From Ignavibacteria bacterium (lineage in GTDB: Bacteria; Bacteroidota; Ignavibacteria; Kapaibacteriales; Kapaibacteriaceae), in NCBI GenBank assembly GCA_013204605.1, contig JABMNI010000002.1, positions 1 through 58,154 on the forward strand: 58,154 nt of DNA. The letters are read 5' to 3'. The translations under genes and the position numbers were made by a program. This document shows positions 35,310 through 38,836 of the stretch, in pieces (positions within the stretch are counted from its first letter, which is position 1; every line of letters starts with the position of its first letter). The notes under the pieces are model-generated. The model searched no databases. It was given only the letters and a program-made list of their open reading frames with translations, and had not been told where the DNA came from.

Positions 35310-37013
35310 CTAGTTAACAATCAATCGTTGCACTACCTGTTCGCCAGACTGCGTGGTGAGTACTACCATGTACATGCCTGGCTGCACATCAGTAAGAACG
35401 AATGGTAGTTGATGATTTCCTGCCGGTCTAGGAGAAGATTGAATGATTGATTGCACAACCTTGCCATCAAGTGAAAAAACATTAACGGTGATCACGTTGG
35501 GTTGCGCCAGTGTATAATCCAACGTTGCACCTTTTTCCCAAGTGGGATTAGGAAACACCTTCGAATCCGTAACCGACGCCGATTTAGTTCGCGTCTCCTG
35601 TAACGATGGTACTGAGTTTATCGGTATGGTCTGCTTGGTACCTCTTCTATTCTTCGGAGAAAGAATAATTATTCTGGTTTGTGCAACAACACATTTACGA
35701 GCTGTTGAACCTTCGATATCAGAGAATTCCTGACTATTTATCCGTAAAGATTTACTCCATGGCATTGATTTCAATATCGAGTCTACCTTTGCCGAAAAAT
35801 TTACTTCCTTAATCTTTAGCTCCTTAGCTTTGACATCAATATCTCTTATCGTCTCTATATTCACATAGTCAACTAGGTCACTATCCGGCGATTCTATTCT
35901 CTTACGAATCAGAACCTTATTGACTCGCTTGATATTCGCACTTGTGTCATCATCGGCTTGGTTGTCAGATTCAATCACAATCTGATCTGAGTCATCATCT
36001 ATCACAAACATTTGCGAGTGTACTTGCATACGCGAAGAGTCTAAACACAGTGCCTTGGTATTCATAGAATTCAACCGGATAAACGAAGGGTTAGCTAGAT
36101 CTTCAGCATCAGAAAACATCACAGCGTGTTTTTCTACGTTCACCATTTTGATGTTCAACGAATTTTCGATTTCCGATTGAAGCGAATCTGGAAAGCCCCT
36201 TACCACATTCATGGTGGCAGGATACCAAAGCAGCACATCGGTGTTGTTCAGGTTTGCAGCAACGGGAAGCATTTGGTTTGGGTCTAGTCCGGCAGCGGCG
36301 TTGTTCGAAACTCTGCACCCGCGTCCCGACGTTGTGGTAATCATGTAGGGAATCTGCGAGGCATCCTTCGTAAAATCAAACGTCTTCATTTTCCCATTAG
36401 TAAAAACTGTCACCTGCGTGTTCTCGTTTGAGTTCACGCTCTTTACAATAACTACAATGCTATCCGTATTACTGCCATTTGCCAGAGCGGCCTTTACAAA
36501 ATCATCGTCGACGCCGGGTAGATTATTCAACTCGATCCCCGGACTGTACACGGTAACAAATGGAGCCGGAATTTGCGGATGGTTGGGTGCCTCGGAATTC
36601 ATTTTATGTGTGGAAGTTTTTGGCAAAGAGTTAGGCGCGCTGTTCGGCGTTGTGTTAGTTGTTGAGTTAGTTGTTGTGTGAGTTGTTGAGTTAGTTGCTG
36701 CTTTAGTTGTTGAGTACTCTGGAGCTGATGCTAGGGGGCTAGGTGTTACGTCGACGGTTTGTGTGGGCGGCGTATTGGGAGTCTGGTTGGGAGAATCTGT
36801 AGGAGTAAAAACAGCTCGAACTCCAAACAGCATGGCCGTGGCCATGACAACTGAGCTGAGGGCAAAGGCTAGTATCATAATAGGTTTCCTTCTGTGCGAG
36901 CGCACATCAGCACCGTGAACAATTGTCTGTGCCTCATCTGCCGTGAAACCAACGGGTTCATTCTTGGCAGAATTAAAGAGGTCTTCGAAATTTTGCTTTG
37001 AGTTTTTCATCAC
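35310..37013 (-). CDS. Membrane-anchored putative anti-sigma protein with T9SS sorting domain
   Basis: A 567-residue protein whose start shares ATGA with the stop of the ECF sigma gene, the usual place of an anti-sigma factor. A short cytoplasmic part (1-44) precedes one membrane segment (about 45-64, IMILAFALSSVVMATAMLFG). Then follows a Pro/Thr-rich linker with a Thr-Asn-Ser repeat (about 101-130), a 350-residue extracytoplasmic region with no domain I recognise, and a T9SS type A domain from VFPNPTW (about 484-567) ending in QRLIVN. No zinc-binding anti-sigma HxxxCxxC motif is visible. The topology is that of a transmembrane regulator with an exported tail that normally belongs to soluble, fully secreted proteins. 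Confidence 0.8.
   Translation of the reverse strand: MMKNSKQNFEDLFNSAKNEPVGFTADEAQTIVHGADVRSHRRKPIMILAFALSSVVMATAMLFGVRAVFTPTDSPNQTPNTPPTQTVDVTPSPLASAPEYSTTKAATNSTTHTTTNSTTNTTPNSAPNSLPKTSTHKMNSEAPNHPQIPAPFVTVYSPGIELNNLPGVDDDFVKAALANGSNTDSIVVIVKSVNSNENTQVTVFTNGKMKTFDFTKDASQIPYMITTTSGRGCRVSNNAAAGLDPNQMLPVAANLNNTDVLLWYPATMNVVRGFPDSLQSEIENSLNIKMVNVEKHAVMFSDAEDLANPSFIRLNSMNTKALCLDSSRMQVHSQMFVIDDDSDQIVIESDNQADDDTSANIKRVNKVLIRKRIESPDSDLVDYVNIETIRDIDVKAKELKIKEVNFSAKVDSILKSMPWSKSLRINSQEFSDIEGSTARKCVVAQTRIIILSPKNRRGTKQTIPINSVPSLQETRTKSASVTDSKVFPNPTWEKGATLDYTLAQPNVITVNVFSLDGKVVQSIIQSSPRPAGNHQLPFVLTDVQPGMYMVVLTTQSGEQVVQRLIVN
36624..36713 (-). repeat. Thr/Asn/Ser codon repeat in the anti-sigma-like gene
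   Basis: The bases encode a tract of Thr-Thr-Asn-Ser-type units (residues 101-130). On the plus strand it shows as repeated GTTGTTGAGTTAGTTGTTG words. Such tracts can gain or lose units by slippage and set the reach of an extracytoplasmic linker. Confidence 0.75.
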
Positions 37014-37576
37014 AGAACAGTTTGGTGTTGAATAGTTTTTGAAATGGGGGATTTAGGGGGCTCAGACAATGCAGGGGCCTCATTCAATCCAAGGTGTGCT
37101 GAAAGCATGGCGCGTCCGCGATGCAACCGAGTTTTTACACCACCGGTGGTGCCACCTTGAATTTTTTGAATTTCTGCAAGACTCAAATCCAGCACGTAGA
37201 ACAGGACAATGGATTCGCGAATTTTGCGCGGGAGTATTTCCAACGATTCACGCAAGATTGCAGCGTCGGTCTCCGAATCGGGTAACGGACGCGTATCGTG
37301 AAGTTCTTCGGCTGCTTGTTCATCGAACCAACCGAATAGTTTTTTCCGGAAGCGCTGACGCTTTACTATTCTACTGGCTATGGTGAACAATACTGATTTG
37401 AGCGAATCCGCATCCTTCAGTCGGTGCATTCCTTCAAGCGCTTGAAGAATGGTTTCCTGCATCACATCCTCGGCCACGTGATTGTTGCCCACCATCTGCT
37501 TTACAAATCGCCATAACGACTCTCTGTGCGGCTCGAATGCCTCGATAAATTTTGCGGAACGTTGTTCCTTCGTCAT
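37010..37576 (-). CDS. RNA polymerase sigma factor, ECF type
   Basis: A 188-residue extracytoplasmic-function sigma factor. Region 2 holds WRFVKQMVGNNHVAEDVMQETILQALEG, and region 4 holds LPRKIRESIVLFYVLDLSLAEIQKI followed by TGGVKTRLHRGRAML, the helix-turn-helix for the -35 element. ATG at 37576 is preferred; the frame is open to 37615. It overlaps the gene for the membrane partner by four bases and has its own promoter-like sequence upstream, so autoregulation is likely. Signal and regulon unknown. Confidence 0.93.
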   Translation of the reverse strand: MTKEQRSAKFIEAFEPHRESLWRFVKQMVGNNHVAEDVMQETILQALEGMHRLKDADSLKSVLFTIASRIVKRQRFRKKLFGWFDEQAAEELHDTRPLPDSETDAAILRESLEILPRKIRESIVLFYVLDLSLAEIQKIQGGTTGGVKTRLHRGRAMLSAHLGLNEAPALSEPPKSPISKTIQHQTVL

Positions 37577-37617
37577 GATACTCCGGTTTATCACTGTTGT
37601 TGTTGAATCCAACACGG

Positions 37618-37647
37618 CATAAGTGACACCACACTCAAAAAGGTTTC
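37618..37647 (-). promoter_or_regulatory. Candidate autoregulated ECF promoter
   Basis: On the minus strand GAAACCTTTTTG (37647 to 37636) and GTCACTTATG (37627 to 37618) look like the AAC-type -35 and GTC-type -10 of ECF promoters, about 35-40 bases before the sigma start. It differs from the TAnnTTTG elements elsewhere in the window, as expected if the sigma factor reads its own promoter. Confidence 0.45.
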
Positions 37648-37669
37648 AGGGCTATTCAAATTTTGTTCA

Positions 37670-38836
37670 CTAATACTCAATAGTGATTTTTTCTGCGGCT
37701 TGTTTTGCGGTTTCGCGCAACTCCTCAATGCCTTCATCACCTCCAGCATACGCAAGCGCTACTCCCATTCTGCGATGTTTGCGCGTAGATGGCTTTCCAA
37801 ATATATTTATCTCAACATTTTCAATTTGAAGGGCTTCTTGAATACCGAGATAACTCGGCGTTGAAGAGTACTCTTGGTCTGCAAGTATGACAGCAGAAAC
37901 TGCATTTCTCAATAGTGTGATTTCTGGTATGGGGTATCCAAGTACGGCCCGTGCATGTAGGTCGAATTCGGATAGCTCGGTGCTATGTGCTAGGGTGACG
38001 AGGCCGGTATCGTGCGGACGCGGCGACAGCTCACTGAAAAACACTTCGTTCTTACCAAGAAAAAACTCTACTCCCCAAATTCCATATCCTCCCAAAGCTT
38101 CGGTGACCAACGCGGCCATTTTCTGTGCTTCGGCTAATTGCGTTGGCAACATTGCGTGCGGCATCCAAGATTCTTGGTAGTCGCCGCGTTCCTGCCGGTG
38201 TCCGATTGGTGGACAAAACCTTGTCGGTCCATTCCGCTGCGTTACCGTCAACAACGTTATCTCACTTTCAAACTCAATAAACTCTTCTACTATCAACTCA
38301 CGAATATCGCCGCGCGAACCTTCCATTCCATAGTCGAACGCATGTTGTATATCTGCGGCGGTGCGAATAACACTTTGCCCCTTTCCACTCGATGACATAA
38401 GGGGCTTTACCACGCACGGAATACCAATGTCTTGAACGGCTTCCACAAATTCCTCGTTTGTGGTGGCGTAGGCATAACGAGCGGTTCGTAGGCTAAGAGT
38501 TTGTGAGGCTAAATCTCGGATGGCCTTTCTATTCATCGTCATGTTTGCAGCATTGGCACTTGGAACTACTTGAATGCCTTGTTGTTCGTATGCGAATAAT
38601 CGCTCGGTTCTGATTGCTTCGATTTCGGGCACGATAATGTCGGGACGCACCTCTGCAACAATGGCATCAAGCACCGCTGCATCTAACATATTGCCCACAC
38701 GGAACTCATCGGCCACCTGCATGGCGGGGGCGTTGGCGTACGAATCGACGGCTACAACCCGGTGACCGTATCGCTTAACGGAAATGGTGAATTCTTTTCC
38801 GAGTTCGCCCGAACCTAGTAGTAAAATGGTTTTCAT
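37670..38836 (-). CDS. purT: Formate-dependent phosphoribosylglycinamide formyltransferase
   Basis: Third step of purine synthesis by the ATP and formate route. The 388 residues are an ATP-grasp enzyme: [18 protein letters not shown] opens the N-terminal domain, [14 protein letters not shown] binds ATP, and [26 protein letters not shown] holds the metal and catalytic region. Length is normal. The upstream gap to priA is 47 bases on the same strand. Confidence 0.96.

Follow-up and report, generated by a model that had tools for sequence, protein, structure and literature searches.

The window analysed here, 58,154 nucleotides from an Ignavibacteria bacterium, contains an ECF sigma factor gene paired with a gene for a membrane-anchored protein that ends in a type IX secretion system (T9SS) type A sorting domain. 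Judged from the sequences of related loci, this architecture is real and conserved, and is not a one-off. Our best explanation, which we hold at slightly better than even confidence, is a two-gene signalling unit composed of the sigma factor and a Dma-like, envelope-spanning anti-sigma factor, the outer end of which would be handed to the T9SS carrier or translocon. The pairing, the single hydrophobic helix, the identity and conservation of the tail, the exchange of the tail for a beta-barrel and an autopromoter-like site were computed; from these we infer sigma binding, topology, docking and release.

The sigma factor gene is found on the minus strand at positions 37010–37576 and encodes 188 amino acids from an ATG, with a GTG start further upstream also possible. 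The protein comprises regions 2 and 4 only, both above the curated cut-offs (Pfam Sigma70_r2, 37.7 bits; Sigma70_r4_2, 37.1 bits), and matches the NCBIfam sigma70-ECF superfamily model at 64.9 bits versus a cut-off of 42.9. Orthologues with the same neighbour gene share 40–53% identity. Located 5' of the gene is a promoter-like site, TGAAACCTTTTTGAGTGTGGTGTCACTTA (37620–37648, minus strand), corresponding to the pattern TGMAACYTTT-N11-GTCACYTA, for which the sigma gene provides the one exact match in the genome of the window. Near-identical sites precede orthologous sigma genes in other genomes, and autoregulation of the sigma factor through this site is probable. A search of the same genome for a regulon using the pattern returned one further site at two mismatches; since the reversed-pattern control also returned one, no regulon can be named from it. 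Near-exact sites were likewise sought at the T9SS genes of this genome, and none was present there. In another genome, an exact copy of the pattern is seen near position 1501 of locus L260 (G013:C154:12577–12605), 5' of a gene whose small product begins much like a signal peptide and is a possible regulon member.

Two further features of the sigma locus were observed. Beyond region 4 the protein ends in a hydrophobic peptide (37013–37027) that is common to the orthologues L173, L174, L183 and L075; the peptides in the window and these four loci are HQTVL, QHTVL, NQPIL, PKTVL and HHPIL, and could possibly serve as a degron or a binding peptide. The gene on the 5' side of the sigma gene (37670–38836, minus strand) is PurT-like in appearance, and the sequence preceding the sigma genes of L174, L176 and L185 also resembles a PurT-like C-terminus, which suggests a conserved gene order.

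The partner, a putative envelope-spanning anti-sigma factor, is encoded at 35310–37010 on the minus strand, with 566 residues from the ATG or 567 from a GTG at 37013. The initial annotation had described an ATGA overlap with the sigma gene; the junction in fact reads TGATG, with one shared base, for the ATG start, or GTGA for the GTG one codon earlier. Its assignment of the two genes as a pair of sigma/anti-sigma type agrees with the ECF profiles, the membrane anchoring of the partner and the conservation of the pairing in homologues, and the single membrane segment that it proposed corresponds to one hydrophobic stretch at residues 42–69.

An AlphaFold model of the partner was calculated with 43 sequences. 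Two helices are predicted within the 42 N-terminal residues (8–17 and 24–33), defining a putative cytoplasmic segment of residues 1–40 (36891–37010, minus strand) in which the block means of pLDDT for residues 11–30 are 83–88. This segment is probably the sigma-binding (anti-sigma) domain; its comparison with Pfam and PDB sequences gave chance-level matches only. The membrane helix follows at residues 43–67 (36810–36884, minus strand), with a hydropathy of 2.37, and is preceded by the basic run RSHRRK, consistent with an N-in topology by the positive-inside rule. A T/S/N/P-rich linker (residues 68–168; 36507–36809, minus strand) is predicted to be disordered, with pLDDT below 50 over nearly all of residues 70–169, and leads into a small ectodomain (residues 169–285; 36156–36506, minus strand) that is ordered in the model. 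Residues 286–479 (35574–36155, minus strand) are again mostly disordered (pLDDT below 50), with 73% gaps in the alignment, and the chain ends in the T9SS type A sorting domain (residues 480–566; 35313–35573, minus strand), a TIGR04183 match modelled as a beta-sandwich with pLDDT 94–97. The large exterior region envisaged in the initial annotation consists mostly of predicted disorder around one small domain.

The ectodomain carries the pattern P-x3-T-x3-G ... LxPV ... W-x2-P ... P and has no match in Pfam. P221, G229, W262 and P274 are kept in 86–95% of 42 relatives. In a sample of 296 genomes from the phylum, a profile of the domain has matches in 17, exclusively within the class of the window, and so misses divergent members elsewhere in Bacteroidota. 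The list from structure comparison of the partner model (VIA-align) is filled by the tail and barely covers the ectodomain.

The position of the hydrophobic core supports an anchor. Among 77 tailed partners the core begins at a median of residue 49 (range 35–75) and spans 26 residues, and the family median for its start is 49–53, compared with 6 in cargo; in ordinary cargo of the same genome it starts at residues 2–12 (n=5 measurable). No cleavable N-terminal Sec signal peptide is predicted for the partner itself, the core of which begins near residue 42. A core lying 35–75 residues in, rather than 2–12, argues against the cleaved signal peptide that the initial annotation had named among the outcomes that would refute its proposal.

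The assignment of the tail is carried by sequence profiles. TIGR04183 aligns over its full model (1–72) with residues 486–567 in the GTG numbering, at 40.8 bits versus a cut-off of 23. PF18962 scores 26.6 bits, just below the gathering score of 27, and all eight homologues scanned exceed that cut-off (32.5–57.1 bits). When a profile was built solely from ordinary tailed proteins encoded in this genome, it recovered the partner tail with E = 3e-14; the tail ranks sixth of about 110 T9SS-tail matches there. By structure comparison the tail fold matches the CTD of RemA held in the T9SS translocon (PDB code: 8gl6_D), the CTD of PorU (Z 10.8, 22% identity), that of mirolase (Z 9.8) and the NucA-CTD in the translocon (8glk, Z 9.5). 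Many unrelated Ig-like domains match at similar Z, so that the sequence profile rather than the fold identifies the tail.

The tail is also the best-conserved segment of the partner (1.79 bits per column, versus 1.37 for the N-terminus and 1.18 for the ectodomain), a ranking that is partly circular as members were chosen for having it. The core type A residues PNP, G516, G545 and Y547 are retained at about the levels seen in cargo. Arg562, by comparison, is present in 71 of 79 partner tails versus 4 of 24 tails from cargo encoded in the same genome (with Lys in 4 more), and Glu557 in 50 of 79 partner tails, a position at which Glu falls outside the six most frequent residues of cargo and Lys and Val predominate. 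By these residues the partner tails form a specialised subclass, distinct from those of cargo.

Recurrence was assessed in an unbiased set of 80 loci, obtained by a pattern scan of reference genomes that used the sigma alignment alone and took no account of the partner. These are mostly from Candidatus Kapabacteria, to which these relatives assign the window, Ignavibacteria and other Bacteroidota MAGs, and include the named strains Agaribacillus aureus BMA12 and Marinoscillum pacificum MRN461. A T9SS tail was found on 50 of the 74 sigma-linked partners that could be scored and on 23 of 290 other ORFs at the same loci (Fisher p = 1.4e-25). The anchored, tailed partner beside an ECF sigma gene, which the initial annotation had suggested looking for in related genomes, therefore recurs there, and homologues keep the tail, the loss of which had been raised as a means of refutation. 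The pair is seen across the family and order of the window. In 63 of 77 pairs the partner start overlaps the sigma stop or lies within 10 nt of it, with a 4-base overlap in 34. The gene 3' of the pair is often convergent or well separated in the orthologues inspected, giving the pair the appearance of a two-gene unit. Two tailed pairs are present in the genome of the window (C11, C72), and related genomes often hold at least two, with ectodomains of very different length. Covariation of the sigma factor with the partner N-terminus (0.30) equals that with the tail (0.30), and singles out no binding segment.

One relative departs from the two-gene form. At L095:2968–5490 (plus strand; G037:C130) a single 840-residue ORF combines an ECF sigma factor and a membrane helix with a parvulin domain of the PpiC type (92.6 bits) and a T9SS-like tail, although this fusion may reflect an error of assembly or reading frame.

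In some relatives a different outer-membrane module takes the place of the tail. Among 119 classifiable non-redundant loci, 79 partners are tailed, 22 have an outer-membrane-type C-terminal signature and 18 have neither; because some loci of this set were selected with an eye to the tail, 50 of 74 is the unbiased figure for tail frequency. About one fifth of the classified partners thus bear the signature of an outer-membrane beta-barrel, most of these labels resting on the C-terminal signature, and one tail-less alignment was modelled (10 sequences, mean pLDDT 64). In that model, helices at residues 6–15 and 22–30 are followed by a membrane helix at 41–63, some 108 disordered residues and eight strands ending in Trp; at this medium confidence the eight-strand end matches OmpA, NspA and OmpX. 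Tailed and barrelled partners have in common an N-terminal motif (hydrophobic-x3-F-x2-A-[RK]) with a second helix, the position of the membrane helix is alike in both, and the linker after the helix is disordered over about 100 residues in the tailed and the modelled barrelled partners. The sigma tree requires 16 changes of the tail label, of which well supported branches force at least 3, and 10 of the barrel label, with at least 5 so forced. In genomes G031 and G037, tailed and barrelled pairs occur side by side, with at least four tailed ones in each.

A closely related layout has been described in Bacteroides thetaiotaomicron, contrary to the initial annotation, which knew of no such system. 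In the Dma anti-sigma factors, the N-terminal anti-sigma domain is followed by a membrane helix and a disordered tether, and the C-terminus is a barrel; the effects of losing Dma1 or Dma2 run via the cognate sigma factor, and Dma3 carries its sigma factor fused (PMC13088901). In layout, the level at which the two were compared, the partner resembles Dma in its N-terminal segment, one membrane helix, long disordered tether, outer-membrane end module and adjoining ECF sigma gene, and the fusion in Dma3 has a parallel in the relative at L095. The partner differs in ending with a T9SS type A tail instead of a beta-barrel, and in having an extra ectodomain before that tail. The short cytoplasmic part of two helices is also reminiscent of class II (CnrY-like) anti-sigma domains, in which two helices within fewer than 50 residues wrap the sigma factor (PMC4598750, PMC7406223); sequence similarity to CnrY is, however, not detectable, and CnrY senses via CnrX and not through an outer-membrane module. 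With respect to T9SS type A cargo (TIGR04183/PF18962), the likeness lies in the sequence and predicted fold of the tail, whereas the partner lacks a short cleavable signal peptide and has a cytoplasmic segment, a membrane helix and Arg562/Glu557. A link between a T9SS CTD protein and an ECF sigma factor is known from Porphyromonas gingivalis, where PorA acts on SigP, which controls T9SS genes (PMC7712824). PorA is, however, a surface protein with a signal peptide that works via a two-component system (PorXY), in contrast to a tail within a putative anti-sigma factor; that the partner belongs to the same system was rejected, as PorA has no anchor. A literature search joining anti-sigma with T9SS terms found no description of an anti-sigma factor with a T9SS tail.

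In the signalling unit that we favour, the first 40 or so residues, as two short helices, would hold the sigma factor in the cytoplasm, and one uncleaved helix would anchor the partner in the inner membrane, leaving most of the protein outside. The disordered tether of about 100 residues would cross the periplasm, followed by the small ectodomain, and the C-terminal tail would be handed to PorV/SprA at the outer membrane, in parallel with the docking of the beta-barrel in relatives and in Dma proteins. An outer-membrane or surface cue could be felt by the ectodomain, or as changed docking of, or pull on, the tail; passing through the tether, it would free the sigma factor by conformational change or proteolysis, and the freed sigma factor would activate a small regulon along with its own promoter. 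For T9SS type A substrates, loading onto PorV takes place within the SprA pore with the CTD leading; this step is energy-free whereas extraction requires energy, and passengers wait at the periplasmic rim (PMC10994853). An anchored passenger could therefore dock: it could load but not leave, and would so link the outer-membrane translocon or carrier with the inner-membrane sigma factor. The anchored N-terminus could also hinder or block the translocon. Many paralogues and the barrel exchange favour the reading of a surface ligand by the ectodomain, over that of the state of the T9SS itself, as the general role.

As to the machinery itself, SprA is above cut-off in the genome of the window and PorV matches at 66 bits, below the cut-off of 250. 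The draft assembly yielded no full-length PorU (best match 158 bits versus a cut-off of 420), a protein that nearly all related genomes contain. Its absence may stem from a gap in the 86-contig assembly, with assembly gap and real loss both possible.

The initial annotation had proposed instead a dedicated sensor of T9SS function, in which the tail samples free PorV/SprA, and channel occupancy, stalling, motor pull or cleavage of the tail by PorU itself serves as the cue that governs sigma release. In favour of this, the tail is more conserved than any other part of the partner and a subclass apart from cargo tails; energy-free CTD-first loading with motor-driven extraction would place an anchored substrate under tension, and the translocon includes a prolyl isomerase subunit (PMC10994853); a parvulin domain is present in the fused relative. 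PorA further provides a precedent for a T9SS CTD protein acting on SigP (PMC7712824). A monitor of one machine nevertheless sits less well with several tailed paralogues per genome (at least four in G031 and G037, beside barrelled ones), with ectodomain lengths that differ greatly among them, with replacement of the tail by a barrel in relatives, and with a promoter-like site that, as far as near-exact copies were sought, is not at T9SS genes of the same genome. The tail/barrel swap and the paralogues per genome are better fitted by a general outer-membrane docking module, and we regard the dedicated monitor as rather unlikely. The further proposal that the tail is itself the sensing element is somewhat more doubtful: the anchored anti-sigma factor would be loaded CTD-first into SprA/PorV, and translocon availability or motor pull, by stretching the tether or causing its cleavage, would set sigma activity. 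If true, it would make the secretion channel a mechanosensor for transcription.

Two other readings dispense with docking. The tail could be a retained Ig-like periplasmic domain that makes no contact with the T9SS, the partner then being an ordinary inner-membrane anti-sigma factor responding to a periplasmic cue. The fold matches do extend to many unrelated Ig-like domains, and an N-terminal anchor should hinder export, but PNP, G516, G545 and Y547 occur about as often as in cargo, and the module that replaces the tail, an outer-membrane barrel, points outward; we consider this reading improbable. That the partner is ordinary T9SS cargo whose signal peptide is cleaved off, beside the sigma gene by chance and with its N-terminal extension untranslated, would account for the VRA after the hydrophobic core and for in-frame start codons closer to it. 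Yet the gene starts on the sigma stop, the N-terminal motif is common to tailed and barrelled relatives, the core is deep (35–75 versus 2–12), linkage to the sigma gene is strong and the nearest relatives lack an alanine-rich cleavage site where the helix ends, so that we give this explanation very little credence.

Outer-membrane signals must cross two membranes to reach genes. The work on Dma indicates that a single anti-sigma polypeptide with a barrel end may span the envelope (PMC13088901), and the tailed partners suggest that the outer end is exchangeable and may be an export signal, in which case the type IX machinery would, besides its role in secretion, give gene regulators a place to dock. 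The same layout in dozens of related bacteria suggests a wire from the outer membrane to gene control, and makes sensing of the outer membrane or secretion machinery by Bacteroidota testable. It also provides a sequence signature for finding such regulators, which, if judged by the tail only, would be classed among secreted T9SS cargo.

Two further observations concern other partners and tailed proteins. Short partners of about 330–360 amino acids (L088, L127, L128, L129, L131 and L132), mostly in a separate sigma clade, have neither the PNP motif nor a barrel, and their ends are weakly tail-like at best (HMM E 7e-5 to 1), being perhaps degenerate tails. At L160 and L163 (G000:C76 and C53), T9SS-tailed cargo is seen with Tat-signal-like N-termini (NRRKFIS and NRRRFIT).
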